NCBI RefSeq assembly: GCF_037975245.1
Contig: NC_092579.1
Coordinates: 6,571,001 to 6,635,000, forward strand
Origin: Apostichopus japonicus
Lineage: Eukaryota > Echinodermata > Holothuroidea > Aspidochirotida > Stichopodidae
Reading direction: 5' to 3'
DNA length: 64,000 nucleotides
In this document: piece by piece, positions 3,281 through 60,136 of the stretch
Layout of the letters: the number at the start of each line of letters is the position of its first letter
Position numbering within the stretch: the stretch's first letter is position 1
Translations under genes and position numbers: made by a program
Notes under the pieces: generated by a model
What the model saw: only the letters and a program-made list of their open reading frames with translations
Told to the model about the DNA's origin: nothing
Databases searched by the model: none

Positions 3281-3775
3281 ATGGCAGATGTGATTATCTT
3301 AGCTTTTCTCTTTGGTATTGTCGTGGTGTCAATGACAACCATATTCATCGTCGCGTGTTATACATGCCGCGTCATCTCAGCGTTCTCTCGAGCTGCTGGC
3401 TGTCGTCAAACAGTTCACTGTCACGTGGAATCATCGAGACCGGAAGTCGGCCTGTCGTCATCACCATCCACTGTTAATTATAGCAGGACGATATATGTTG
3501 ATAACCACTCAGTGTCCATTAAAACTGAGTTCTACCCACAAAAAGATCGAACCGCGTTTCGCTCTACAAGCAATGGCTTCTCGAAACAAAATGGCCAACA
3601 GGGAGCAGCTTTCAGCAATGTTATATACGAATTAGAATCGGAAAGAAACAGCAACAGAGCGGAGGTTGAAGTTCTAACTGCTTCGGATCCTGAAAGCAAA
3701 GACAAAAACCACGACTATGAGAATACAAGGAGAAAAATTTACGAGAATGTTTCATTTCCCACCAGAGAATTCTAA
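3281..3775 (+). CDS. LAT-like transmembrane adaptor protein, unit 1 copy (164 aa)
   Basis: This encodes a probable type III single-pass adaptor. Seen directly: a five-residue N-terminus (MADVI), a hydrophobic helix at about residues 4-25, a juxtamembrane C26-Y-T-C29 followed by C41 and C47, then a polar tail. Tail tyrosines lie in TIYVD (Y72), IYELE (Y116), DYENT (Y146) and IYENV (Y154). Known for vertebrate LAT/NTAL adaptors: a tiny exterior, a CxxC palmitoylation motif below the membrane and pYxN sites for the Grb2 SH2 domain. I infer a similar docking role at the plasma membrane, perhaps downstream of the neighbouring LRR receptors. The ATG has a strong context (A at -3, G at +4). The last segment is repeated downstream at 3954-4058. 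Convergent architecture rather than orthology to LAT is quite possible. Confidence 0.7.
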   Translation: MADVIILAFLFGIVVVSMTTIFIVACYTCRVISAFSRAAGCRQTVHCHVESSRPEVGLSSSPSTVNYSRTIYVDNHSVSIKTEFYPQKDRTAFRSTSNGFSKQNGQQGAAFSNVIYELESERNSNRAEVEVLTASDPESKDKNHDYENTRRKIYENVSFPTREF

Positions 3776-3953: not shown

Positions 3954-4058
3954 TTGCTAACTGCCTCGGACCCTGAAAGCAAAGACAGAAACCGCGACTA
4001 TGAAAATGCAATACGAAAACTTTACGAGAATGTTTCATTACCAACGACAAGAATCTAA
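3954..4058 (+). other. Duplicated terminal coding segment of the adaptor gene, candidate alternative last exon
   Basis: A 35-codon segment (34 residues plus stop) follows an acceptor-like tract ending TTGTTCAG. It repeats the C-terminus of the preceding gene: LLTASDPESKDRNRDYEN, then IRKLYENVSL, then TTRI and a stop. It preserves both YEN motifs. Splicing from GAG|GTTGAAG at 3664/3665 to 3954 would keep the frame (phase 0 to phase 0) and swap the last 36 residues. The donor is weak, so this may instead be an inert partial duplication. The same arrangement is kept in unit 2 at 24852-24956. Confidence 0.5.
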
Positions 4059-7048: not shown

Positions 7049-9535
7049 ATGGGAGCTGTCTTTCATGTGTTAATCCTACTTGCGTTCTTCTCCATTACCA
7101 TCTTCGGTAGATGTCCGGATCACTCTCAGGAGACGCTTTGTTCATCCTGTGAGAATAACACAGCAGATTGCAGTCACAGATGTATAGGAAACTCACCGTA
7201 TTCTAAGAATTACTTGACACAAATGTGCCCTGGTAGAGGATCAGAAATTTACAACATTGATCTTTCCTTTAATAAATTAATCCGTTTTGAATGCCCCGTT
7301 GATGGTCATGGCGTTAAATCATTAAACATATCACATAATAACGTTACCGTCAACAATTGTTCAAACTGGGAACGTTATTGTGAAAACTTTTTTCGTCGCT
7401 TACGAACAATAGATCTAAGCTATAACAGAATACAACAAACTTGCAACGCTTCTGCTTTTGGTTTCTTCAAGTTGGAAAGCGTGAATTTAAGTCACAACGA
7501 GATAAAATCTTTGGAAAATCTTCCTTTTGTGACCTCAGCCAAAAGACTGCAAACCCTTGATGTAAGTCACAATATGATAACATGTATACCATCAACATTT
7601 TTCATAGAGAGACAGAATCTTATTAAAGTTGATCTTCGCTTCAATTCCATTCAAAAGATCGCATTACACATTGATATCTCCGACCAACGGTTGTGTGATT
7701 CAGACAACCAGTTATCTATAATCCTTTCGGACAATATTTTAAGCAAATTAGACGTCTCGCTTATAAATGAAAATAACTTAACTTGTCAAGAGTTGCAAAA
7801 TCAAACTCTATGCGAAGGTACTTTGGAATTTCTTTATAACAACTCGAAGAACAGGAGTTGTAACTTAACGTCAGACATTGTAAAGAGCGCCATCACTCCT
7901 TCAAGCATAGGAAATGAGATGGAATGTAATTGCCAAGGTAATATATGCGAACAGAATGGAAGCACTATACTACAGCCTACATATAACGTGTCCTGCATAA
8001 GTACAAATGCACCACTTATGACCACAGATACAGCTCATGAGAGGGGAACTACATTTTCCCTTATCCCTCAATCAGATGAAACTATTGTAACCAATCCGGT
8101 CCTGACAACCACCAAAGAATTAGAACTAGGGGAACGTTCACCTCATTCGCAAACGCATCCAGCATTCCCTGCCAGTAACTCGCAAACGCATCCAGCAGTC
8201 CCTGCCAGTAACTCGCCAAAGATAGATATGCTTTTCCTCCTTATCCCGATAGCAGCTGTTGTATTGATAACGTGTATATTTTCAGTATGCGTGGTTAGGT
8301 ACCTATCACAATTAGCATCGTACACTCTGTCGTCGAATGCAGTAACAAACAGGCAACAAATGGTACCAGAAAGGCCACCAAAATTACCGAAAAAGAGGAA
8401 ATCTTCTGGAAAACGACTGTCTTCAAAGTTTTACAGATCTACAACAACTAAGGAAGACGTTTCGATATCTCCTATCAATGGCAATGTATTCACTTTAAGG
8501 CCTCTTCCTTCGGTACCATCGATGGGGAATACAACAATGATTACAACAACCGAGGAACAAAATTCGTCTGTGAAATGGCAGCATTCTTCTAAAACTGGCC
8601 ATTCATTCAAGAAGATTGACCATCTAGCTTCTACGCAAATATCATGCAGCTATGAAGATGACGTAACACTAGATAGAAAAGAAAATATTCCCAATGGAAC
8701 AAGAACGGCTAGTTTTTACAAGGAATTTTCTAAATCAAGTATAAGACAAAAGAAGGAAATGAAACGAACTCAATACACGTGGTCATGTGACACGAAACAA
8801 GAAGAATCACCAATTGTCCCTCCAAAGTTGAAGAATACTCGGCCTGTTTCGCCAAATGATGCTCATCTCTCATCTCCAACTGTTTTATTGGATGATCAAT
8901 ATGAAAGGAATGAGCAAATTGAAATGAAGGAACTGTCATCAATCGAAGCTAAATCAACAAACAACGTTTACCAACGTACTATACCTTATTCTAGGTATTC
9001 ATATGCGTTTAGGGAACAGGGGGTTAAACAGCTTGCAAAAGGTGGGAGAAAGGTTGTTTCTTGCATAGTTCTAGATGAACAAATTGCAGGAGAAGTGCGA
9101 GACGTTTCGAATACGAAACGACCCTTGAGCATGTCTAATCCTTTTACATTTAATACGTCTAGAGCAGACAATGACAACAGATTGGACATACCAAAATCAT
9201 CTACTGTAGATAGCAATACTCCCAAAGAACAAACTTGCAAAGTGGAAACGGTTACTAATGGAGGTGAAAATGAAATCATATGTGCAAACAAGAAGTACAA
9301 AATGGACATGAATGCTACAGATGAGGAAGACAGAGGGACACATTTGTCAGATGGTGTCAGCGAGGGAGCTTTGGGGACGAGAAACACTTTGGTGGTTAAC
9401 GTTGATGTACATCCATGTCCAAGTTCCAGTTCGGAAATGATGGCCTATCCTAAGACAATTTCACATAATGCTAAATTTCTAGATCCAAACAAATTTTCTA
9501 AGCTAAGTAAGAAATATGAAAAAGGGACGATATAA
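7049..9535 (+). CDS. LRR1: leucine-rich-repeat transmembrane receptor, class I tail (828 aa)
   Basis: I chose the ATG at 7049, two bases after a splice-acceptor motif, because it begins a clean signal peptide (residues 1-20) and all six paralogues start there. A Cys-rich N-cap follows (C22, C31, C34, C41, C45, C60), then about six LRRs (for example LRTIDLSYNRI, LQTLDVSHNMI), many N-glycosylation sequons and a second Cys-rich region (ECNCQGNICEQ). A stalk contains an 11-residue repeat, SQTHPAFPASN, twice. One membrane helix spans about residues 395-417. The roughly 400-residue cytoplasmic tail is basic near the membrane and holds SH3-ligand motifs: PPKLPKKR, RPLPSVP and IVPPKLK. No TIR, death or kinase domain is visible. 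An innate recognition receptor signalling through recruited SH3 proteins is an inference. LRR3 shares this tail; LRR2 shares the N-terminal ectodomain. Confidence 0.9.
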   Translation: MGAVFHVLILLAFFSITIFGRCPDHSQETLCSSCENNTADCSHRCIGNSPYSKNYLTQMCPGRGSEIYNIDLSFNKLIRFECPVDGHGVKSLNISHNNVTVNNCSNWERYCENFFRRLRTIDLSYNRIQQTCNASAFGFFKLESVNLSHNEIKSLENLPFVTSAKRLQTLDVSHNMITCIPSTFFIERQNLIKVDLRFNSIQKIALHIDISDQRLCDSDNQLSIILSDNILSKLDVSLINENNLTCQELQNQTLCEGTLEFLYNNSKNRSCNLTSDIVKSAITPSSIGNEMECNCQGNICEQNGSTILQPTYNVSCISTNAPLMTTDTAHERGTTFSLIPQSDETIVTNPVLTTTKELELGERSPHSQTHPAFPASNSQTHPAVPASNSPKIDMLFLLIPIAAVVLITCIFSVCVVRYLSQLASYTLSSNAVTNRQQMVPERPPKLPKKRKSSGKRLSSKFYRSTTTKEDVSISPINGNVFTLRPLPSVPSMGNTTMITTTEEQNSSVKWQHSSKTGHSFKKIDHLASTQISCSYEDDVTLDRKENIPNGTRTASFYKEFSKSSIRQKKEMKRTQYTWSCDTKQEESPIVPPKLKNTRPVSPNDAHLSSPTVLLDDQYERNEQIEMKELSSIEAKSTNNVYQRTIPYSRYSYAFREQGVKQLAKGGRKVVSCIVLDEQIAGEVRDVSNTKRPLSMSNPFTFNTSRADNDNRLDIPKSSTVDSNTPKEQTCKVETVTNGGENEIICANKKYKMDMNATDEEDRGTHLSDGVSEGALGTRNTLVVNVDVHPCPSSSSEMMAYPKTISHNAKFLDPNKFSKLSKKYEKGTI
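8147..8212 (+). repeat. 33-bp tandem repeat (two copies) in the LRR1 stalk
   Basis: Two in-frame copies encode SQTH-PA-F/V-PASN just outside the membrane. The corresponding region of LRR3 is absent, leaving a much shorter stalk, so this is a length polymorphism between paralogues. Confidence 0.85.
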
Positions 9536-16238: not shown

Positions 16239-18410
16239 ATGGAAATTGTCTTTGATGTGCTAATCCTACTTTCGTTCTTCTCCATTACCATCTTCGGTAG
16301 ATGCCCGGATCACTCTCAGGAGACGCTTTGTTCATCCTGTGAGAATAACACAGCAGATTGCAGTCACAGATGTATAGGGAACTCACCGTATTCTAAGAAT
16401 TACTTGACACAAATGTGCCCTGGTAGAGGATCAGAAATTTACAACATTGATCTTTCCTTTAATAAATTAATCCGTTTTGAATGCCCCGTTGATGGTCATG
16501 GCGTTAAATCATTAAACATATCACATAATAACGTTACCGTCAACAATTGTTCAAACTGGGAACGTTATTGTGAAAACTTTTTTCGTCGCTTACGAACAAT
16601 AGATCTAAGCTATAACAGAATACAACAAACTTGCAACGCCTCTGCATTTGGTTTCATCAAGTTGGAAAGCGTGAACTTGAGTCACAACGAGATAAAATCT
16701 TTGGATAATCTTCCTTTTGTGACCTCAGCCAAAAGACTGCGAACCCTTGATGTAAGTCATAATATGATAACATGTATACCATCAACGTTCTTCATAGAAA
16801 GACAGAGTCTTATTAAAGTTGATCTTCGCTTCAATTCCTTTCAAAAGATCGCATTGCACTTTCATATCTCCGACCAACGGTTGTGTGATTCAGACAACCA
16901 GTTATCTATAATCCTTTCGAGTGATATTTTAAGCAAATTAGACGTCTCGCTTATTAATGAAAATAACTTAACTTGTCCAGAGTTGAAGAACCAACCTCTT
17001 TGCAATGATATTGCAGAAGATTTCTATGACAATTCGGATAACAAGAGTTGTAACTTAATGTCAGAAATTATAAAGACCGCCATCACTCCTTCAAATCTAG
17101 AATATCAGATGGAATGTTGTTGCCAAGGTAATATATGCGAACAGAATGTAAGCACTATACTACAGCCTACAAGTACCTTGTCCTGCATAAGTACAAATGC
17201 ACCAATTATGACCACAGATAAAGCTCTTGAGAAGGGAACTACATTTTCACTAATCCCTCAATCACATGAAACTAGTGAAGCCAATCCGGTCTTGACAAAC
17301 ACCAAAGAACTAGAACTTGGAGAAATATCATCTCAATCGCCAACGCAAACAGCTCTACTGATAGATGAAATGCTGATCTATATCATGCTGATAGCAGCTG
17401 TTGTATTGCTGACGTGTATATTTTGCATTTGCTTGATAAAATCTCTTTCGCAAATTGCAACAACGTACTTTCGATATAAGAGTAGGGTAATTGAACAAGG
17501 CGTAACGAACAACGAACGTCCAAAACTTCCCAACAGGTACTTCTCATTTGGAAACAGTCAACCAAAAGCTGAATCCCATGAAACGCAAAGTAGCATTATT
17601 CACATTTATGAATCATCTGAATTTGAACAACGTGACGAAATCGTGACGTCATCTAATAAACCGATAGAGTCCTGTACAAATACCAATGAAGATCCAATTA
17701 CAGAATGGCATTCATATGAACGTTGCATCAAGGAAAAATCCTTACACCCTAACGAACAACTGAAAGACGTAAATATTGAAAGCAATCTTTTCAATAAGCA
17801 AGATACACTTGTTGAAATACACCCTGTCCATGAATTTCAAGAACCTCCTTCTTATGGATTTACTTTATCGAAGACTCCCTCCAAGTCCCATAACGAACCA
17901 GTAACTACATTCAGTGACGCACATGTCTATGAATATACCATTATCAAGACGTCTTCTTCTGATACTGAACTAAAACCTACTGATATCCATACAGAGTTTG
18001 ACAAAGCAGTTACTAGCTGTGGTGAACCAAAGGACGGACATATTTATGAACATAACCGTATGAAGACGTCTTCCTCTGATACTGAATTGAAATCTGCTGA
18101 CATCCATAGAGAGTATGACAAACCAGTAACTAGCTTGAGTGAACCAAAGGACGCACATGTCTATGAATATACCATTAACAAGACGTCTTCCTCTGATACC
18201 GAAGTGAAACCTAGCGACATTGATCGAGAGTTTGACAAACCAGTAACTAGCTTGAGTGAACCAAAGGACGCACATGTCGATGTTCATACGTCCTCCTCTG
18301 ATACCGAAGTGAAACTTAGCGACATTGATCAAGAGTTTGACAAACCAGTAACTAGCTTGAGTGAACCAAAGGACACACATTTCTATGAACATGAAGAAGC
18401 CTTCCTCTGA
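16239..18410 (+). CDS. LRR2: leucine-rich-repeat transmembrane receptor, class II tail (723 aa)
   Basis: The start codon lies two bases after the acceptor AG, and residues 1-20 form a signal peptide. The ectodomain has the same Cys-rich N-cap, about six LRRs and Cys-rich C-cap as LRR1. Its first part is almost base-for-base LRR1 (16295-16650 against 7105-7460, about two differences by eye). The membrane helix spans about residues 378-402. The cytoplasmic tail is unrelated to class I: a conserved block (IIHIYESSEFEQRDEIVTSS) is followed by four to five repeats of about 39 residues of the type HVYEYTIIKTSSSDTE, ending near DKPVTSLSEPKD. Each repeat offers tyrosines and an acidic serine cluster fitting casein kinase 2. 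Of the class II genes this has the longest intact tail. The ligand is unknown; immune recognition is inferred from the expanded family. Confidence 0.9.
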   Translation: MEIVFDVLILLSFFSITIFGRCPDHSQETLCSSCENNTADCSHRCIGNSPYSKNYLTQMCPGRGSEIYNIDLSFNKLIRFECPVDGHGVKSLNISHNNVTVNNCSNWERYCENFFRRLRTIDLSYNRIQQTCNASAFGFIKLESVNLSHNEIKSLDNLPFVTSAKRLRTLDVSHNMITCIPSTFFIERQSLIKVDLRFNSFQKIALHFHISDQRLCDSDNQLSIILSSDILSKLDVSLINENNLTCPELKNQPLCNDIAEDFYDNSDNKSCNLMSEIIKTAITPSNLEYQMECCCQGNICEQNVSTILQPTSTLSCISTNAPIMTTDKALEKGTTFSLIPQSHETSEANPVLTNTKELELGEISSQSPTQTALLIDEMLIYIMLIAAVVLLTCIFCICLIKSLSQIATTYFRYKSRVIEQGVTNNERPKLPNRYFSFGNSQPKAESHETQSSIIHIYESSEFEQRDEIVTSSNKPIESCTNTNEDPITEWHSYERCIKEKSLHPNEQLKDVNIESNLFNKQDTLVEIHPVHEFQEPPSYGFTLSKTPSKSHNEPVTTFSDAHVYEYTIIKTSSSDTELKPTDIHTEFDKAVTSCGEPKDGHIYEHNRMKTSSSDTELKSADIHREYDKPVTSLSEPKDAHVYEYTINKTSSSDTEVKPSDIDREFDKPVTSLSEPKDAHVDVHTSSSDTEVKLSDIDQEFDKPVTSLSEPKDTHFYEHEEAFL
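17910..18400 (+). repeat. Coding tandem repeat, about 117 bp, in the LRR2 tail
   Basis: Four full units and a partial one encode the 39-residue tail repeat with SSSDTE and Tyr motifs. One internal unit is shorter (VDVHTSSSDTE). Copy number and sequence vary between LRR2, 4, 5 and 6. Confidence 0.85.
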
Positions 18411-19811: not shown

Positions 19812-20411
19812 GCTCATCTCCATCTTCAGCAACTTCACCTTCAACATCTTCACCTTCAACAACTTCACCTTCAACATCTCCACCTTCAACATCTTCACCT
19901 TCAACATCTTCACCTGCAACATCTTCACTTTCACCATCTTCACCTTCAAAAACTTCACCTTCAACAACTTCACCTTCAACATCTTCACCTTCAACAACTT
20001 CACCTTCAACATCTTCACCTTCAACACTTCACCTTCACCTTCAACATCTTCACCTTCAACATCTTCACCTTCGACATCTTCACCTTCGACATCTTCACCT
20101 TCAAAAACTTCACCTTCAACAACTTCACCTTCAACATCTTCACCTTCAACAACTTCACCTTCAACATCTTCACCTTCAACACTTCACCTTCACCTTCAAC
20201 ATCTTCACCTTCAACATCTTCACCTTCGACATCTTCACCTTCGACATCTTCACCTTCAACATCTTCACCTTCAACATCTTCACCTTCAACATCTTCACCT
20301 TCAACATCTTCACCTTCAACATCTTCACCTTCAACATCTTCACTTTCAACATCTTCACCTTCAACATCTTCACCTTCAACATCTTCACCTTCAACAGCTT
20401 CACCTGCAACA
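19812..20411. repeat. 15-bp minisatellite (TTCAACATCTTCACC)n
   Basis: About 600 bp of 15-bp units includes a larger duplicated block (about 19945-20035 and 20105-20190). One - strand frame reads as GEDVE pentapeptides flanked by non-repetitive acidic sequence (VENQEIQSQPD before, EDGDEQSENEETDDALEE after) and is preceded by a pyrimidine-rich AG. Two 14-bp units break that frame, so I treat the array as a repeat and at most a decayed acidic exon. Long open frames on either strand here are products of the repeat. Confidence 0.85.
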
Positions 20412-20674
20412 TTCACATCTGGTTGAGACTGAATTTCTTGATTCTCAACAAGGGCTTCTTCTTTATGCTCTTAAAACGAAACAAAAGAATCTGAATTAGA
20501 ATGATGGGTACATATAATTGTTCACTACAATTTAAAGGATTCTAAAGTATTAGAAGAAAATGATTCTCTTTAAAACCTATAAACAACTTTACAGAACATG
20601 GTTGCATACTTTATCGATAAACAATGCCTGTAAGCGTTACTTTTTTCCAAGCTGTAAGACACAGCTTATATGGG

Positions 20675-20975
20675 AGATTGGAGATGTTTGTCCTAAGATT
20701 ACATCATATCCTGTAGTACTAGACCACGTGTCTTTGATACCTTAAATGAGAGATTGGAGATGTTTGTCCTAAGATTACATTATATCATGTAGTAGTAGAC
20801 CACTTGTTTTGATACCTTAAATGAGAGATTGGAGATGTTTGTCCTAAGATTACATTATATCATGTAGTAGTAGACCACTTGTTTTGATACCTTAAATGAG
20901 AGATTGGAGATGTTTGTCCCAAGATTACATCATATCCTGTAGTACTAGACCACATGTCTTTGATACCTTAAATTA
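20675..20975. repeat. 75-76 bp tandem repeat, four copies
   Basis: Copies start at 20675, 20751, 20826 and 20901 with AGATTGGAGATGTTTGTCC. Outer and inner copies form two slightly different subtypes. Confidence 0.9.
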
Positions 20976-21746
20976 GGGCTTGGAATGGAATGACGTCATC
21001 ATTTACAGAAAGGGTTGAACTCACAGAGGTTTGAGAAGTGCGCTGTATGTGGATTCTGGATAAGCCATATGAAGTTAATGCGTATAGGTTGGCAATGGTC
21101 TGGATATTGATCCGAATAAATATATTTGATATAATCTTAACGTTAGGATATCAAGGAAGCATTTATTACTGAAGTATAGATAAGGTAGAAAAAAATCAGA
21201 TGTAAGTGTAATTATTATTCGCATTTTACACTGTATTAAATGTAAAGAACAAAATTTTATCTTATTTTTCTTATTGGTAGAATAGATGACAATAATAAAA
21301 ATTGAAATTTGAGCTGCAGTTCCCTTGTCGTTTTTAAAAAGTGTGAATTTTATGTGTACACGTATAATGACATACCCTATGACAAATAATTACATATAGC
21401 GACATACAATGGCACATTGAGCCATAAAATGATAGATCTGCCTATATACATAATGCCAAAGGTTTACTTTGATCTCTTTCACAAGCGATGTATACCCAAA
21501 GAATGATTTTTTTGAGAAACCTGATTTCTGCTGGATATAAATATGATATATGATTTCTTTTTAATGACTGAACATCACTAATGGATACAAAGTGAGGGAA
21601 ATCGAGCTCCATAGCAATGAGTCAATAACAAAAACTGCTTTCAATTCTTTGAATTCTTTTAATTGCTTTTGGTTTTGTTATATAGTCGTCACAATCGTAC
21701 ACAGTTTTTAAACTGAAAGGTTGCAAACATTTTCTGCGACCCTTTA

Positions 21747-24173
21747 TTTTCTAACAGATACATTTATATAGCATGTCTTCCGTGTTAACAATATTTGAGG
21801 GCATTTCTATCGTGAGAAAAAAAAACTCATACTAAGTTTTAACAATGTGATGTCAAATAGACGACTACAGAAACCAGATCAAGGTTTATAAATTAATGGT
21901 TAATTACTGATGAAGACAGATCGAAGGAAACATACGAGGTTGAGTAAATTTCAAGTAAGTCACTGATTATTTTGTTGTGTTTTATACTTCTGCTATGCAG
22001 ACACCAAATGAGTTACCAATAAATTATGTCTATCGACACGTTTCAAAGACAGAAGTTTATACAGACCCGTTGCTTAATTGAATATTCGATATAATATTTA
22101 AAGTAAAACGGGGGCATAACAAGTAACCCATATGATGAGTAATGTTGTACTTAAAAAGTACTCGTCAGTACTCGAGTATATTTTAGGATATACTTGATGC
22201 TCGCACTTGATGAAAATTACCCGGATGCTAAAGTACTTGCTTACTTGTACTCGATTTAAACTACCTGGTAAGCGCTCAGGACGAGTAAAACTACTTATCG
22301 AGTATTTACATAATAACGCATTTGTGTCAAACTGCGTGACGTACGTTACAACAGGAAGCCGTATAATTTTTATTAGTACTCATATTACTGTAGTCCTACA
22401 CTCTTAAGTCTCTACCCCAGTAGTTTATCATACATATAGCATAATTAATCACCAGGTACGGATATGCTGTACGACGATGAAGCATGTATAGCTGATTTAT
22501 GTCATCTTGCTAGCGTATACGAAACAATTTATGGGCATGTTTGAAGTAGAACTATATCAAATTTATCAATCTTGTGCATGTACATGTCAAGACGTCACCT
22601 GCTACTGCATGCCACCTTCACATTCCAAATATCGGAAAATTTCTGAAATCAGAGAAACATTCTGACAAAAACAACAAGATTTGGGCATTTCCATTACATT
22701 CAACAATTACATCATTTGATAAAATTGGCCATCGGGGATCAGTCATAATTACGAGCTGCTTTTTTGATTTGATAAATCCCAAAGAATTAAAAAGTATTCG
22801 AATGACAAAAGTACTCGTGTACTCGATATAGTCGGACTCGAAAATGCTGTATTCAGTCAATGATAATCGGTATTTGGAACCCTCAAGTACTGGGAAATAC
22901 TCGATATTCGGATGAAAGTACTTGACTACAACAGTAATGATCTGCGTGGAACACGGTGTAGCCCGGCTTAACTAGGTTGATCAAACTACGTGGTGCTATA
23001 GATAGAGAAACATCAAAGTGCTGAGCTTTTAATGCGAAAAGCGTAAATTATCACCTGTAATCTTAGTATCGTTTCGATCCAAGTCGTAAAATAGCAAGAT
23101 TTACGGATTAAAGCAACCTAGACACTCTCTCACCTTCTGCTATACAGCTAACTGATACATAGCGCTATTACATTTGAATATAGTATAGCCAGTAGTCACA
23201 CGCTGAAATAATTTCTAATTTACCGCAATCATTTTCATTTCAGAACTGCTAGTATGAATTTGTAGGAAAATGTTCAGATATTGGTTGAAACTTATATTTA
23301 TAGTACTTGCTAATAATCAACACAACACTCACGAGATGCTGTGTTGTGTATTAAAGATGATACTTTAGATTTGACATTTCAGTCGTTTTAGTCTAAATAG
23401 AAATATATAACGGTAGTTAATTAAAGCTATCTAAAGTTTGTAAGAAATATAAATGTAAACCTTTGCATATTTAAGTTTCGTTAAATTGTAACATATATTT
23501 GAGTGATAAAATCCTAAGGAAATAATGTGTCTTCCTCTTCTTCCATATAAATCAATGATTGCGCTTCTCCCATAATAAAACTAAACCGGAACTTATAAAC
23601 CAGCAATTGTCTTTAAAAAATTGATCTTTGCATTACCCTCTGTTAAACATATTATAACAATTTTCATGGTGTATAGTAAAGATAAGGTAACAGTATAAAA
23701 AAGGAATATTTTTGCCTATAACGTGATGAGGGCGAATATGGTCTGCAAGTTTTCTTCTACCCATTGTAATGTTGCCATTGTATGTTTCATTGCAGACATT
23801 ATTTTTGGCCGACTAGAAAACAAGGATCATACAGTTCAGCTGCAGAAGGGCTACTTTTTGCAGAGATGGAAAAGAGGAACATTGATATGTTTTGTCTACA
23901 GAATATTCTTTAACATTTATCCTTCTGATTTGAATGCAACAGCGTTAACTTCATTCTAGCCCACCCTGTATTACAGTGACTATAGTCATCAGACCGTGAC
24001 AACTCTTCAAAGCATATGTGTAAACTATACTTAATATCGTCATGGTTCATGGAACTTATCACGCACTTTTAATGCAGTATTATCAAGTATATATTTGTCG
24101 TCAATTCGATGTTATACTGTTTATATCTATGTAGTCATCATTTTATGTTTGCTGTTGAAAACTCATCAGAATC
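21747..24173. other. Upstream region of the unit 2 adaptor gene, no gene found
   Basis: This is the unit 2 counterpart of 851-3280, with only scattered differences by eye. The GTACTCG-rich stretch recurs at about 22150-22925. No supported gene is seen. Confidence 0.5.
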
Positions 24174-24668
24174 ATGGCAGATGTGATTATCTTAGCTTTT
24201 CTCTTTGGTATTGTCGTGGTGTCAATGACAACCATATTCATCGTCGCGTGTTATACATGCCGCGTCATCTCAGCGTTCTCTCGAGCTGCTGGCTGTCGTC
24301 AAACAGTTCACTGTCACGTGGAATCATCGACACCGGAAGTCGGCCTGTCGTCATCACCATCCACTGCTAATTATAGTAGGACGATATATGTTGATCACCA
24401 CTCAGTGTCCATTAAAAGTGAGTTCTACCCACAAAAAGATCGAACCGCGTTTCGCTCTACAAGCAATGGCTTCTCGAAACAAAATGGCCAACAGGGAGCA
24501 GCTTTCAGCAATGCTGTATACGAATTAGAATCGGAAAGAAAGAGCAACAGAGCGGAGGTTGAAGTGCTACCTGCTTCGGATCCTGAAAGCAAAGACAAAA
24601 ACCACGACTATGAGAATACAAGGAGAAAAATTTACGAGAATGTTTCATTTCCCACCAGAGAATTCTAA
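24174..24668 (+). CDS. LAT-like transmembrane adaptor protein, unit 2 copy (164 aa)
   Basis: This has the same length and layout as the unit 1 copy: short N-terminus, helix at about residues 4-25, C26-Y-T-C29, and tail tyrosines at 72, 85, 116, 146 and 154. About eight residues differ (positions 53, 65, 75, 82, 114, 115, 123 and 133). None removes a tyrosine, the CxxC or a YEN motif, which suggests constraint on the docking sites. The start context is identical (A at -3, G at +4). LRR3 lies about 3.7 kb downstream, as LRR1 does in unit 1. No third copy accompanies LRR5 or LRR6. Function is inferred from architecture. Confidence 0.7.
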   Translation: MADVIILAFLFGIVVVSMTTIFIVACYTCRVISAFSRAAGCRQTVHCHVESSTPEVGLSSSPSTANYSRTIYVDHHSVSIKSEFYPQKDRTAFRSTSNGFSKQNGQQGAAFSNAVYELESERKSNRAEVEVLPASDPESKDKNHDYENTRRKIYENVSFPTREF

Positions 24669-28370: not shown

Positions 28371-30770
28371 ATGGGAGCTGTCTTTGATGTGTTCATCCTA
28401 CTTGCGTTCTTCTCCATTACCATCTTCGGTAGATGTCCAGATCACTCTACTGGGACGCTTTGTGCATCCTGTGAGAATAAGACAGCATACTGCAGTAACA
28501 GATGTATAGGAAACTCACCGTATTCTAAGAATTACTTGACACAAATGTGCCCTGGTAAAATATCAGAAATTTACAACATTGATCTTTCCTTAAATGAATT
28601 AATTCGTTTTGAATGCCCCGTCGATGGTCCTAGCGTTAAACATTTAAACATATCACATAATAACGTTCGCTTTGACAATTGTTCAAACTGGGAACATTAT
28701 TGTGAAAACTTTTTTCGTCGCTTACGAACAATAGATCTAAGTTATAACAGAATACAACAAACTTGCAACGCCTCTGCATTTGGTTTCATCAAGTTGGAAA
28801 GCGTGAATTTAAGTCACAACGAGATAAAATCTTTGAATAATCTTCCGTTTGTGACCTCAGCCAAAAGACTGCAAACACTTGATGTTAGTCACAATATGGT
28901 AACATACATACCATCAACATTCTTCACAGAGAGACAGGATCTGATTAAAGTTGATCTTCGCTTCAATTCCATTCAAAAGATCGCATTACACATTGAAATC
29001 TCCGACCAACGGTTGTGTGATTCAGACAACCAGTTATCTATAATCCTTTCGGACGATATTTTAAGCACATTGGACGTCTCGCTTATAAATGAAAATAACA
29101 ACACTTGTCAAGAGTTGCGAAATCAAACTCTTTGCGATGGTACTGCGGAATATCTGTATAGCAACTGGAATAACATGAGTTGTAACTTAACGTCAGAAAT
29201 TGTAAAGAGCGCCATCGCTCCTTTAAGCATAGGAAATCATATGGCATGTAATTGCCACGGTTATATATGCGAACAGGATGAAAGCACTACAATACAGCCT
29301 ACATATCAGGTGTACTGCATAACTACAAACGCACCACTTATAACCACAGATACAGCTTATATGAGGGGAACTACATCTTCCCTTACCCCTCAATCAGATG
29401 AAACTATTGTAACCATTCCGGTCCTGACAACCACCAAAGAATTAGAACTAGAACTGCTGTTCTACCTTATCCCGATAGCAGCTGTTGTATTGATAACGTG
29501 TATATTTTCAGTATGCGTGGTTAGGTACCTATCACAATTAGCATCGTACACTCTGTCGTCGAATGCAGTAACAAACAGGCAACAAATGGTACCAGAAAGG
29601 CCTCCAAAATTACCGAAAAAGAGAAAATCTTCTGGAAAACGACCGTCTTCAAAGTTTCACAAATCTACAGCAACTAAGGAAGAAGTGGCGATATCTCCTA
29701 TCGATCGTTCCAATGGCAATGTATTCACTTTAAGGCCTCTTCCTTCGGTACCATCGATGGGGAATACAACAATGATTACAACAACCGAGGAACAAAATTC
29801 GTCTGTGAAATGGCAGCATTCTGCTAAAACTGGCCATTCATTCAAGAAGATTGACCATCTAGCTTCTATGCAAATATCATGCAGATATGAAGATGACGTA
29901 ACACTAGATGGAAAAGAAAATATCCCCAATGGAACAAGAACGGCTAGTTTTTACAAGGAATTTTCTAAATCAAGTATAAGACAAAAGAAGGAAATGAAAC
30001 GAACTCAATACACGTGGTCATGTGACACGAAACAAGAAGAATCACCAATTGTCCCTCCTAAGTTAAAGAATACTCGGCCTGTTTCGCCAAATGATGCTCA
30101 CCTCTCATCTCCAACTGCTTTATTGGATGATCAATATGAGAGGAATGGGCAAATTGAAATGAAGGAACTGTCATCAATCAAAGCTAAATCAACAAACAAC
30201 GTTTACCAACGAACTACACCTTATTCTAGGTATTCACATGCGTTTAGGGAACAGGGGGTTAAACAGCTTGCAAAAGGTGGGAGAAAGGTTGTTTCTTGCA
30301 TAGTTCTAGATGAACAAATTGCAAGAGAAGTCCGAGACGTTTCGAATTTGAAACGACCCTTGAGCATGTCTAATCCTTTTATATTTAATACGTCTATCGC
30401 AGACAATGACAACAGATTAGACATACCAAAATCATCTACTGTAGATAGCAATACTCTCATAGAACAAACTTGCAAAGTGGAAATGGTTACTAATGGAGAT
30501 GAAAATGAAATCATATGTGCAAACAAGGAGTACAAAGTGGACATGAATGCTACAGATGAGGAAGACAGAGGAACACATTTGTCAGATGTTGTCAGTGAGG
30601 GAGCTTTGGGGACGAGAAACACTTTGGTGGTTAACGTTGATGTACATCCATGTCCAAGTTCAAGTTCGGAAATGATGGCATATCCTAAGACAATTTCTCA
30701 TAATGCTAAATTTCTAGATCCAAAGAAATTTTCTAAACTTAGTAAGAAATATGAAAAAGGGACGATATAA
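28371..30770 (+). CDS. LRR3: leucine-rich-repeat transmembrane receptor, class I tail (799 aa)
   Basis: The start is two bases after a splice-acceptor AG. Residues 1-20 are the signal peptide, followed by the Cys-rich N-cap, about six LRRs and the C-terminal Cys region. The stalk repeat of LRR1 is missing, so the chain passes almost directly from KELELELL into the membrane helix (about 362-385). The long tail matches LRR1 closely, including PPKLPKKR, RPLPSVP and IVPPKLK and the C-terminal FSKLSKKYEKGTI; it carries a small insertion, DRS. The N-terminal ectodomain instead resembles its neighbour LRR4 (CPDHSTGTLCASCEN). This is the class I member of unit 2. Confidence 0.9.
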   Translation: MGAVFDVFILLAFFSITIFGRCPDHSTGTLCASCENKTAYCSNRCIGNSPYSKNYLTQMCPGKISEIYNIDLSLNELIRFECPVDGPSVKHLNISHNNVRFDNCSNWEHYCENFFRRLRTIDLSYNRIQQTCNASAFGFIKLESVNLSHNEIKSLNNLPFVTSAKRLQTLDVSHNMVTYIPSTFFTERQDLIKVDLRFNSIQKIALHIEISDQRLCDSDNQLSIILSDDILSTLDVSLINENNNTCQELRNQTLCDGTAEYLYSNWNNMSCNLTSEIVKSAIAPLSIGNHMACNCHGYICEQDESTTIQPTYQVYCITTNAPLITTDTAYMRGTTSSLTPQSDETIVTIPVLTTTKELELELLFYLIPIAAVVLITCIFSVCVVRYLSQLASYTLSSNAVTNRQQMVPERPPKLPKKRKSSGKRPSSKFHKSTATKEEVAISPIDRSNGNVFTLRPLPSVPSMGNTTMITTTEEQNSSVKWQHSAKTGHSFKKIDHLASMQISCRYEDDVTLDGKENIPNGTRTASFYKEFSKSSIRQKKEMKRTQYTWSCDTKQEESPIVPPKLKNTRPVSPNDAHLSSPTALLDDQYERNGQIEMKELSSIKAKSTNNVYQRTTPYSRYSHAFREQGVKQLAKGGRKVVSCIVLDEQIAREVRDVSNLKRPLSMSNPFIFNTSIADNDNRLDIPKSSTVDSNTLIEQTCKVEMVTNGDENEIICANKEYKVDMNATDEEDRGTHLSDVVSEGALGTRNTLVVNVDVHPCPSSSSEMMAYPKTISHNAKFLDPKKFSKLSKKYEKGTI

Positions 30771-39574: not shown

Positions 39575-40300
39575 AAGACGTAAATATTGAAAGCAATCTG
39601 TCAAATAAAGCGATGCACGCCTTTTTTCAATAAGCAAGACATACTTGTAGAAATACACGCTGTCCATGAGTCACAAGAACCTCTTTCTTATGAAAGTACT
39701 TTAACGAAGACTCACTCCAAGTCCCATAATGAACAAGTAATTCGGTGACGCAAATGCCTATGAACATACCATTATCAAGACGTCTTCTTTTGATACTGAA
39801 CTTAAACCTAGTGATATCTATACAGAGTTTGACAAAGCAGTTACAAGCTGTGGTGAACCAAAGGACGCACATATCTATGAACATGACATTATGAAGACGT
39901 CTTACTCTGATACTGAATTGAAACCTGCTGACGTCCATAGAGAGTATGACAAACCAGTAACTAGCTTGATTGAACCAAAGTACGCACATGTCTATGAATA
40001 TACCATAATCAAGACGTCTCCCTCTGATACCGAAGTGAAACCTGGCGACATTGATTGACAGTTTGACAAACCAGTAACTAGCTTGAGTGAACCAAAGGAC
40101 GCTCATGTCTATGAACATACAATTATCAAGACGTCTTCCTCTGATACCGAAGTGAAACTTAGCGACATTGATCGAGTGTTTGACAAACCATTAACTAGCT
40201 TGAGTGAACCAAAGGACACACATATCTATGAACATAACATCATGAAGACGTCTTCCTCTGAAGACTGAATTGAAAACTGCTGACGTCCACAGAGAGTATG
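39575..40300 (+). pseudogene. Decayed repeat tail of LRR4
   Basis: The sequence still shows the class II repeat units (TCTTCCTCTGATACCGAAG and neighbours), but further small insertions, a deletion near 39738 and in-frame stops are present. One repeat pair remains open at 40083-40268. It lies beyond the LRR4 stop and is probably 3' UTR now. Confidence 0.75.
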
Positions 40301-40588
40301 ACAAACCAGTAACTAGCTTGAGTTAACCAAAGGACGTACATGTCTATGAACATACAATTATCAATACGTTTTCCTCTGATACCGAAGTATATATATATAT
40401 ATATATGTATATATATTGCATAGGTTAATGGAATGTATAGGAAAACATTTGTAATTTGTCGATATATCGCAGGCGGTCTTGCATGTGTGCCACCTGTCTG
40501 GTAAAGAGATTGCTACTTTGGTATTTACAAATACCGCTGTTTTTAGCCGTTTATATGTATAATGCCTCAACGAATCCAATTGATGTTG

Positions 40589-46454: not shown

Positions 46455-47429
46455 TATTTGTCTGTCTTTCAATCTGTTTTTGTCACCGAAAACCTATTAG
46501 AAACAGGGAAACATTGTCCACAAGATTCTCAAAACATAAACCCACAGTACGGACCTAAACTAGGCATTACTGCTAACTTGGGAACGCCATCCACACAAAA
46601 TACGCCGTTCCTTCCCAAAAGAAACTTCTCATTTGGAAACAGCCAACCAAAAACCGAATCCCATGAAACGGAAAGTAGCATCATTCACATTTATGAATTA
46701 TCTGACGTTGAACAGCGTGACGAAATCGTGACGTCATCGAATAAACCGAAAGAGTCCTGTACAAATACCAATGAAGATTCAACTGCAGAATGTCACTCAT
46801 ATGAACGTTGCATAAAGGAAACATCATTACACCCTAACAAACAACTGAAAGACGTAAATTTTGAAAACACTCTTTCTAATAAGGCGATGCACGACTTTTT
46901 CAATAAGCAAAACACAATTGTAGAAATACACCCTGTCCAGGAATCACAAGAACCTCCTTCTTATGAACATACTCTAAAGAAGACGCCCTCCAAGTCTAAT
47001 AACGAAACAGTAACTACATTCAATGACGCACATGTCTATCAACATACTATTGTCCAGACGTCTTCTTCTGATACTGAACTAAAACCTAGTGATATCCATA
47101 CAGAGTTTGACAGACTAGTTACTAGCTGCGGTGAACCAAAGGTCGCACATATATATGAATATAACATCATGAAGACGTCTTCCTCCGATACTGAGTTGAA
47201 ATCTGCTGACATCCATAGAGAGTATGACAAACCAGCAACTAGATTGAGTGAACCAAAGGACGCAAATGTCTATGACCATACAATTATCAAGACGTCTTCC
47301 TCTGATACCGAAGTGAAACTTAGCGGCATTGATCGAGAGTTTGACAAACCAGTAACTAGCTTGAGTGAACCACAGGACACACATTTCTATGAATATACCA
47401 TTATGAAGAAGTCTTCCTCTGAAAACTGA
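46455..47429 (+). pseudogene. Class II cytoplasmic tail of LRR5, downstream of the stop
   Basis: This is in the same frame as the LRR5 ectodomain and open throughout: a segment shared with LRR6 (CPQDSQNINPQYGPK), the YELSDVEQRDEIVTSS block and about four 39-residue repeats ending KKSSSEN. It lacks the RRRSS-containing insert of LRR6. There is no suitable start codon of its own. Long retention of the frame suggests either that the upstream interruption is recent or a sequencing error, or that read-through or splicing still uses this tail. Confidence 0.7.
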
Positions 47430-47790
47430 ACTGAAACCTATACTATCAATAGGAAAGTCATGAACACGGTCACTAGCTTGGGTTTATCAGATCTAGAAGA
47501 CATATACTTGAACATACAATTTTATATATATATATATTTATATATATGTTTACATATATGTTTATACATTGCATAAGGTAATAGAACGTATAGGACAACA
47601 TTTGTAATTTTGTTTATAAATTGCGGTCTTACATGTGTGCCACCTGTCTGGTAAAGAGATTGCTACTTTGTGCTGTCATAATATCATTAATTAATATCAT
47701 ATTTACTAATACCCCTGTTTTTAGCCACGGCCAATACTCCTATGGATCGCATTTATATGTATAGTGGCTCAACGAATCCAAATTACTTTG

Positions 47791-57756: not shown

Positions 57757-59943
57757 ATGGATATTGTCTTTAATGTGGTGATCCTAATTGCGCTCTTCTC
57801 CATTACCATCTTCGGTAGATGTCCGGATCACTCTACGGGGACGCTTTGTTCATCCTGTGAGAATAACACAGCAGATTGCAGTAACAGATGTATAGGAAAC
57901 TCACCGTATTCTAATAATTACTTAACACATATTTGTGAAGGTATATATGACAACATCGATCTTTCCTTTAATAAATTAATTCGTTGTGAATGCCCCGTTA
58001 GTGGTCCTAGCGTTATATCTTTAAACATATCACATAATAACATATCCTTCGACAATTGCTCAAACTGGGAAGGTTACTGTGGATCCTTTTTTCGTCGCTT
58101 ACGAACAATAGATCTAAGCTATAACAGAATACAACAAACTTGCAACGCCTCTGCATTTGGTTTCATCAAGTTGGAAAGCGTGAATCTGAGTCACAACGAG
58201 ATAAAATCTTTGGATAGTCTTCCTTTTGTGACCTCAGCCAAAAGACTGCAAACACTTGATGTAAGTCACAATATGATAACATGTGTACCATCAACATTCT
58301 TCATAGAGAGAAATAATCTTATTAAAGTTGATCTTCGCTTCAATTTCATTCAAAAGATCGCATTACACTTTGATATCTCCGACCAACGGTTGTGTGATTC
58401 AGACAACAAATTATGTATAATCATTTCGGGAGAAATTTTGAGCAAATTAGACGTCTCGCTTATCATTGAAAAGAGCTACACATGTGCAGAGTTGAGAAAC
58501 CAAACTCTTTGTGATGGTACTCTGGAATATCTTTACCCCAACTCGAATAACTTGAGTTGTAACTCAACGTCAAAAGTTTTAGAGAGCACCTTCATTCCTT
58601 CAAATATAGAAAATCAGTTAGCATGTCGTTGCCAAGGTAATATATGCGAACAAAATGAAAGCAGCATACAGCAACCTTCATATATTGTATCTTGCGTAAA
58701 TATCGATGTCACAAACGCACCACTTATGACTACAGTTCCTCTCACGACTCAACCACAGGATACTAGTGAATCGACAACGCAAACAGGGAATACAAAGTTG
58801 AGTATGAATGTGGTTATTTTTTGTTTTTTTTTCGTGGTTATCTTTATGGTCATTACAATAGTATTTGTGTGTCTTTCATTCCATTTTGTCACCAAAAACG
58901 TATTAGAAACAGCGAAACATTGTCCACAAGATTATGAAAAAATTAATCACCAGTACGGACCTAAACTATGCATTACTGCTAACTTGGGATTGCCATCCAC
59001 ACAAAATACGCCGTTATTTGAGGAATATGATGAAATTCCTTTTGCTGCAGATGGCAACCGCCGTCGAAGTTCAGTTTCAGATGGAAAACACACGGATGAG
59101 TCCCTCGATCGTAGCGTAACAAAAGAGCAACCGATAGATGTAGCAAATCTTGCCAGAGACGACGTTATGTGTTGTGAAGCATTGCCAATCGTACAAACAT
59201 TACAGCGAAATCCAAGTGAAACTGAGATTGACCAATCAGAAATAAATATTGGAAACGGTCAACCAAAAATTGAATCCCATGAAACAGAAAGTAGCATTAT
59301 TCACATTTATGAATCATCTTACGTTGCACAACGTGACGAAATCGTGACGTCATCGAATAAACCGATAGAGTCCTGTACAAATACCAATGAAGATCCAATT
59401 ACAGAATGGCATTCATATGAACGTTGCATACAGGAAACATCATTACACCCTAACGAACAACCGAAAGCCGTAAATAGTGAAAGCAATCTTTCAAATAAAG
59501 AGATGCACGACTTTTTCAATAAGCAAGACATACTTGTAGAAATGCACGCTGTCCATGAGTCACAAGAACCTCCTTCTTATGAAAGTACTTTAACGAAGAC
59601 TCCCTCGATGTCCCATAACGAACCAGTAAGTACATTCAGTGACGCACATGTCTATGAACATAACATTACCAAGACGTCTTCTTCTGATACTGAACTAAAA
59701 CCTAGTGATATCCATACAGAGTTTGACAAAGCAGTTACTAACTGTGGTGAACCAAAGAACGCACATAACATTATGAAGACGTCTTCCTCTGATACTGAAT
59801 TGAAATCTGCTGACATCCATAGAGAGTATGTCAAACCAGTAACTAGCTTGGGTGAACCAAAGGACGCACATGTCTATGAATATACCATTATCAAGTCGTC
59901 TTCCGCTGATACCGAAGTGAAACCTAGCGACATTGATCGATAG
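57757..59943 (+). CDS. LRR6: leucine-rich-repeat transmembrane receptor, class II tail (728 aa)
   Basis: Signal peptide (1-20), Cys-rich N-cap, about six LRRs, Cys-rich C-cap and a membrane helix at about residues 351-377. The tail has a segment shared with LRR5 (CPQDYEKINHQYGPK) and a unique insert with FEEYDEIPF and the basic RRRSS, a protein kinase A-type site. The YESSYVAQRDEIVTSS block and about three 39-residue repeats follow. The last repeat ends early: where LRR2 reads DREFDKPVTS, LRR6 has DR followed by TAG, with about 25 further recognisable codons after it. This is the longest class II protein and the reference for judging lesions in LRR5. Confidence 0.9.
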   Translation: MDIVFNVVILIALFSITIFGRCPDHSTGTLCSSCENNTADCSNRCIGNSPYSNNYLTHICEGIYDNIDLSFNKLIRCECPVSGPSVISLNISHNNISFDNCSNWEGYCGSFFRRLRTIDLSYNRIQQTCNASAFGFIKLESVNLSHNEIKSLDSLPFVTSAKRLQTLDVSHNMITCVPSTFFIERNNLIKVDLRFNFIQKIALHFDISDQRLCDSDNKLCIIISGEILSKLDVSLIIEKSYTCAELRNQTLCDGTLEYLYPNSNNLSCNSTSKVLESTFIPSNIENQLACRCQGNICEQNESSIQQPSYIVSCVNIDVTNAPLMTTVPLTTQPQDTSESTTQTGNTKLSMNVVIFCFFFVVIFMVITIVFVCLSFHFVTKNVLETAKHCPQDYEKINHQYGPKLCITANLGLPSTQNTPLFEEYDEIPFAADGNRRRSSVSDGKHTDESLDRSVTKEQPIDVANLARDDVMCCEALPIVQTLQRNPSETEIDQSEINIGNGQPKIESHETESSIIHIYESSYVAQRDEIVTSSNKPIESCTNTNEDPITEWHSYERCIQETSLHPNEQPKAVNSESNLSNKEMHDFFNKQDILVEMHAVHESQEPPSYESTLTKTPSMSHNEPVSTFSDAHVYEHNITKTSSSDTELKPSDIHTEFDKAVTNCGEPKNAHNIMKTSSSDTELKSADIHREYVKPVTSLGEPKDAHVYEYTIIKSSSADTEVKPSDIDR

Positions 59944-60136
59944 TTTGTCAAACTAGTAACTAGCTTGAGTGAACCAAACGACACACATGTCAATGGCTAT
60001 ACCAATATGAAGAAGTCTTCATCTGAAGACTGAATTGAAACCTATACTGTCCATATGAAAGTCATGAACACGGTAACTACCTTGGGTAAATCAGATCTAG
60101 ATGACATATACCTGAACATAAAATTTTATAAATATT

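Follow-up and report, generated by a model that had tools for sequence, protein, structure and literature searches.

Scaffolds of the LAT type are best known from vertebrate leukocytes. TRAP proteins share a common plan, consisting of a short outside part, one helix and a tyrosine-rich tail, and a CxxC motif is present in LAT, LIME, NTAL and PAG, as laid out in the available part of PMC2803307. Work on amphioxus, in the part of the paper accessible to us, states that no LAT-like molecule was found in that animal, and its authors suggest an unknown membrane molecule instead (PMC5431462). We found no invertebrate LAT-like protein described in the open-licence literature, as far as its texts were available, and the portion of the Holothuria genome paper at hand (PMC13228809) makes no mention of leucine-rich, LRR, Grb2, adaptor or transmembrane.

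Here we describe a sea cucumber locus with a predicted membrane protein of this general kind. The window, i.e., the whole stretch of 64,000 bases that was analysed, corresponds to C19:6571001-6635000 (C19 being one of the 35 contigs) in a genome of 671.58 Mb, which was searched in full. Positions given without a contig name are those of the window.

Layout of the predicted adaptor

The adaptor ORF, copy W1, occupies positions 3281..3775 of the forward strand as a single exon that runs from ATG to TAA and encodes a predicted single-pass membrane protein of 164 aa. The layout proposed in a preliminary description, with about five exterior residues, one helix, CYTC just inside and two YEN sites near the C-terminus, is borne out. 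A membrane helix is predicted at about residues 6-25 (3296..3355, forward strand) from hydropathy, from AlphaFold and from the constancy of residues 6-32 in all four copies. The six best 19-residue Kyte-Doolittle windows begin at residues 3-8, with means of up to 2.75, while windows beginning after residue 35 reach -0.03 at most, which leaves one membrane segment in all. The N-terminus would lie outside, judging from Asp3 before the helix and Arg30 after it.

CYTC at residues 26-29 (3356..3367, forward strand) is a possible palmitoylation CxxC and contributes two of the four cysteines of W1 (26, 29, 41 and 47). Tyrosines are found at positions 27, 67, 72, 85, 116, 146 and 154; the tail of 135 residues contains 6 of them, two in YxN, and has no Pfam domain above the cut-off. 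The two candidate pYxN-type sites, both on the forward strand, are YENT at Tyr146 (3716..3727) and YENV at Tyr154 (3740..3751), the latter of which also fits YxxPhi. W1 shows two of the features of a TRAP: a predicted short extracellular part with one transmembrane helix, as seen by hydropathy and in the AlphaFold helix 2-38, and, in its sequence, a long and presumably cytoplasmic tail that contains a number of tyrosine sites.

AlphaFold, run with the four copies as rows, placed a helix at residues 2-38; when residues were grouped in blocks of ten, pLDDT was 77, 78 and 64 for blocks one to three. All of residues 32-164 fell below pLDDT 50 (mean 38.8), and the low-confidence elements of the tail were strands at 49-51, 65-73 and 76-84 and a helix at 146-155. 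It should be noted that the input consisted of four near-identical rows, so the low pLDDT of the tail agrees with a disordered tail but does not establish it. At least two YEN occurred in 0.05% and at least two YxN in 6.2% of 200,000 tail shuffles, and a CxxC within residues 24-36 in 0.44% of whole-protein shuffles, all three tests having been picked after the sequence had been seen.

Adaptor copies and the LRR receptor cluster

With E values of up to 10 allowed, a protein search of the whole genome returned 11 matches, namely four full copies, three tail-only copies, one TM fragment near copy D and three matches taken as chance. The full copies all lie on contig C19 within 58 kb, at 6537457 (D), 6543705 (C), 6574281 (W1) and 6595174 (W2). 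W2 (24174..24668, forward strand), found both in the ORF list and in the genome search, is a second adaptor copy of 164 aa; the three copies other than W1 are 95, 91 and 89% identical to it, the first value being that of W2. CYTC at residues 26-29 is present in all four, and two carry an extra tyrosine at residue 46, where W1 has histidine. The preliminary description spoke of two copies with unchanged tyrosines; all seven tyrosines are indeed kept in every copy, but the copies number four, and since 138 of the 164 codons show no amino-acid change, the unchanged tyrosines are weak evidence and carry little weight. The fragment C19:6537142-6537225, located 0.23 kb upstream of D, matches the TM/CxxC region with 91% identity along 64 bases and has one TGA inside the protein match.

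The neighbourhood of LRR receptors, also part of that description, was confirmed: copies C, W1 and W2 lie 3.2, 3.8 and 4.2 kb upstream of an LRR gene, measured from start to start, whereas the nearest full copy downstream of D is C, 6 kb away. W1 and W2 are part of a block duplication. The LRR receptor ORF that follows W1 (7049..9535, forward strand, 828 aa) lies 3.3 kb past its end, and that following W2 (28371..30770, forward strand, 799 aa) lies 3.7 kb past its end; a tail of the PPKLPKKRK type is common to these two genes and to the LRR gene after copy C. With an ectodomain of 319 aa as query, at least nine copies of the LRR family were found, all at C19:6546919-6637746, and no match elsewhere was better than E 2.3e-6; 125 of 240 candidates were scored, which makes the copy counts lower bounds. 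Among the matches listed, the LRR family is confined to this cluster, and it may be lineage-specific.

Several further features of the cluster were observed. The LRR gene after copy C (C19:6546919-6547876) is interrupted by a TAA in the match, which continues in another frame near query residue 292-294. Another type of LRR tail, at 17916-18410, 39747-40388, 47022-47440 and 59641-60087, is made of tandem 39-residue repeats with the core H-V-Y-E-Y-T-I-x-K-T-S-S-S-D-T-E, so that its tyrosines are repeated as well; repeat number varies between receptors. Tandem repeat arrays with 15-base and 75-base steps in self-comparison occupy 19815-20412 and 20665-20987, downstream of the LRR gene that starts at 16239 and ahead of W2.

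Evidence on whether the ORF is coding

By our judgement of the sequence, the adaptor ORF is probably a real protein gene. Among the four copies, frame-breaking indels number 0 in 498 ORF columns vs 5 in 364 flank columns (Fisher p 0.014), and among three copies 0 in 495 vs 15 in 1208 (p 0.006), some of the flank indels lying in base runs; the comparison of W1 with W2 alone (0 in 495 vs 4 in 1195, p 0.25) is uninformative. The sole ORF indel among the four copies removes or adds three bases, i.e., one codon, and no copy has an internal stop. Within residues 6-32, all 3 variable sites are synonymous; given that the amino acid varies at 26 of 164 codons, the chance of none in these 27 codons is 0.006, for a stretch that was chosen afterwards. 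G+C is 0.44 in the ORF vs 0.35 and 0.32 beside it.

Substitutions in the ORF look neutral. The dN/dS values of the six copy pairs (1.17, 0.64, 0.69, 0.88, 0.73 and 0.87) show no departure from neutrality, 28 of 38 variable sites are non-synonymous, which is near the neutral share (one-sided binomial p 0.35), and columns are variable in 7.7% of the ORF vs 5.8% of the 5' flank. The codon-usage score of the true frame, 0.070, is higher than that of 99% of the non-coding stretches and of 94% of the sequences shuffled at equal composition. The training set comprised 8 ORFs out of 38 loci and gave 3,546 counts, pseudocounts included; at each match the longest frame, whichever its strand, was taken if it exceeded 600 bases, and duplicates were dropped. 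One antisense frame outscores the true frame in all four copies. ORFs that begin with ATG and reach 164 aa or more appeared in 5 of 60 simulated 64-kb sequences; length alone therefore proves little.

Flanking regions

Downstream of W1, at 3954..4058 of the forward strand, lies a copy of its YEN-YEN tail. It comprises 34 residues in the frame LLTASDPESKDRNRDYENAIRKLYENVSLPTTRI, ends in TAA, is located 178 bases past the W1 stop and begins directly after the acceptor-like TTGTTCAG. Its DNA is 83% identical to the end of the W1 ORF over 102 bases, with both YEN kept. Compared with the ORF tail, dN/dS is 0.37 and 10.5 of 17 changes are non-synonymous (binomial on 10 of 17, p 0.07; the count omits the first codon of the tail copy), and in the codon test the true frame is the best of six. 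Together with one further base, the stretch (106 bases in all) is identical among W1, W2 and C; the tail copy is disrupted in D.

This tail copy may be an alternative last exon or a relic, that is, the old last exon of a gene whose ORF lost its intron. Joining at GAG|GTTGAA keeps the frame into it; the acceptor is fair and the donor scores -4.4 on a consensus matrix, and since this is a poor score, splicing into the tail copy is put forward as a possibility only. The copy ends in TRI, which we take to be a class I PDZ-type end.

On the upstream side, a donor-like CAA|GTAAGT at 1062 is found in W1, W2 and C and is absent from the 10-kb stretch around D; it could mark the end of a 5' UTR exon, and a donor-like site at 1564 scores still better. 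The 3' end of an LTR element occupies 137-852, the element reaching upstream to C19:6562589. Along 716 bases, its LTRs show 99.7% identity to each other, the insertion being recent, and W2 has the uninterrupted target site (21744-21748), a 5-base overlap suggesting target-site duplication. The element lies 2.4 kb upstream of the W1 ORF and about 0.2 kb before the likely 5' UTR donor, and so may have changed the W1 promoter.

Homology searches

Membership of the LAT family, for which the preliminary description had proposed a profile search, found no support in Pfam. The LAT family PF15234 was not among the Pfam matches of the W1 protein when E values of up to 10 were admitted and HMMER filters were on, and PF15234 run against the genome gave one match, on contig C17 (E 5.8, 14.6 bits), under the cut-off of 27. 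The layout of the putative adaptor does fit the common TRAP plan (PMC2803307, in the part available), and a function analogous to that of LAT is plausible; with the profile tests negative, the adaptor is not filed as LAT. If functional, it would act in the manner of a raft TRAP. The Pfam matches to MOV-10_N (E 0.0029, 18.1 bits vs a cut-off of 27.4) and Acyl-CoA_ox_N (E 0.19) were taken as chance. No family was matched in NCBIfam, a library for bacteria and archaea, and a sequence search of PDB gave two matches only (E 1.1 and 1.6).

In the genome, a remote match at C20:13582072 (E 0.017, 26%, within an 803-codon frame) was set aside as chance, the 700-aa ORF there showing no adaptor layout on inspection by eye; weaker matches on C16 and C10 (E 0.95 and 2.6) have stops inside. 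Descent of the adaptor from the TM and tail of the linked LRR receptors themselves was likewise rejected, the best BLASTP E values against two LRR proteins being 8.2 and 1.1. Fast-evolving tails hide descent, and for this reason convergence and deep homology with LAT are not separable here; convergence is as likely as common descent, or likelier.

Possible partners

A Grb2-type SH2 exon at C19:20052925 matches the Grb2 SH2 chains of PDB (E 1.8e-19) and carries KYFIWVVKF, the tryptophan of which presumably sets the +2 Asn (pYxN) preference. A second, related exon at C19:19977714, 75 kb away, has tyrosine at the position of this tryptophan. What we take to be a Csk-like SH2 was also recognised in the genome.

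YxN is absent from the four LRR tails inspected (genes at 7049, 16239, 28371 and 57757, of at least nine in the cluster), each of which has 11-14 tyrosines and one to three YxxPhi. As these tails have no YxN, a YxN-bearing partner would add something. It is the linkage alone that suggests that the adaptor serves the linked LRR receptors, and linkage can also be a by-product of block duplication, which counts against such a pairing.

Interpretation of the locus

In our opinion, the four copies may constitute a small gene family encoding a TRAP-like adaptor with a role similar to that of LAT/NTAL, a similarity that convergence could explain; we adopt this reading tentatively as the best one. As to expression, topology, lipidation, phosphorylation and partner, we infer the following arrangement. 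About five residues would lie outside the cell, followed by one helix and a mostly disordered tail, and CYTC at the inner face would be palmitoylated, holding the adaptor in ordered membrane. Tyr146 and Tyr154 would be phosphorylated by a kinase of the Src or Syk type that is active close to a receptor, for which the linked LRR receptors are the most plausible candidates, and the resulting pYEN would bind the SH2 of Grb2 and lead to SOS/Ras or to actin regulators.

Three other explanations have to be weighed. The duplicated ORF might not, or might no longer, be functional, its open frame having been carried along with the LRR block. The neutral-looking dN/dS, the weak codon score and the appearance of ORFs of this length in 5 of 60 simulated windows agree with this, as do the TM fragment with an internal stop upstream of D, the one interrupted LRR copy in the cluster and the recent LTR insertion upstream of W1. 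Nevertheless, the frame is kept in four copies despite the indel load of the flank, residues 6-32 show no amino-acid change, and both the CxxC at the helix end and the two YEN are rare in shuffles; we regard a non-functional ORF as rather improbable. A functional single-pass protein could use its tail tyrosines as sorting signals instead, with YENV binding AP-2 and serving traffic or recycling, perhaps together with LRR receptors and without phosphotyrosine signalling. YxxPhi is a sorting motif, and it is matched by the Tyr154 site of every copy (YENV in three, YENL in the fourth) as well as by the YENV of the downstream tail copy. YENT at Tyr146, however, does not fit YxxPhi, whereas YxN fits both sites in all four copies and in the tail copy, and sorting appears an unlikely explanation of the tail.

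The ORF might also be the last exon of a larger receptor, which looks very unlikely. There is an AG four bases before the W1 ATG, though it has no good pyrimidine tract, and better acceptor-like sites lie further upstream; the frame of copy D is open for 47 codons ahead of the ATG, and an acceptor-like site at 2903 is followed by an upstream frame common to W1 (77 codons) and W2 (86 codons). Yet a 4-base indel in copy C crosses this shared frame, an in-frame stop stands six codons ahead of the W1 ATG, and the open frame measures 169 codons in three of the four copies. When the four copies are compared, their 5' flank shows indels of 4, 2, 5 and 1 bases, unlike coding sequence, and over 2.4 kb upstream the longest forward-strand frames are 77 codons (W1) and 93 codons (W2). 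Homology of copy D to the other copies stops about 0.25 kb upstream, and beyond 2.4 kb there is the LTR element at W1 and a stretch of tandem repeats and LRR sequence at W2.

If the tentative reading of the ORF as a TRAP-like adaptor is extended to its neighbours, the locus might represent a module that evolved in echinoderms, in which a LAT-like scaffold, block-duplicated with a YxN-less LRR family, provides Grb2 coupling in trans, while the duplicated tail exon gives rise to another isoform, one that ends in a class I PDZ-type motif. We consider this extension doubtful. Were it true, the module would parallel, in an invertebrate, the receptor-plus-TRAP logic of vertebrate lymphocytes. A working echinoderm TRAP would show that the layout of receptor, membrane scaffold and Grb2 is either older than lymphocytes or arose independently of them, and the adaptor would be a gene to test in coelomocytes.

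Comparison with known systems

LAT has YxN sites near its C-terminus, as W1 does, but its tail is longer than the approximately 135 residues of W1, and its PLC-gamma site is a YLVV-type motif, of which W1 has none. W1 further differs from LAT in having only two YxN and no PF15234 match. Pfam also contains a LAT2 model, and W1 had no match to NTAL/LAB (LAT2) there at E up to 10. With LAT, W1 shares, by prediction, a very short outside part, one helix, a CxxC at the inner face and a long tail, and with NTAL/LAB (LAT2) the CxxC TRAP plan, as far as these plans are given in the available part of PMC2803307. Like NTAL/LAB, W1 is not tied to T cells.

The amphioxus Slp76 signalosome, in the accessible part of its description, provides an invertebrate case in which cytosolic members of the LAT pathway are present (PMC5431462). 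Amphioxus BbLcLRR (PMC8211107) and FrLRR (PMC10199209) are, according to the available parts of these papers, invertebrate deuterostome LRR membrane proteins tied to Lck and Grb2, beside which the sea cucumber LRR genes are set here by description, not by sequence. In BbLcLRR, the receptor itself carries the tyrosines, whereas in the sea cucumber a separate small protein would do so (PMC8211107, in part). FrLRR, which is predicted to be GPI-anchored, comes down with Grb2 in the published portion available to us (PMC10199209), while the sea cucumber adaptor would be a protein separate from the receptor.
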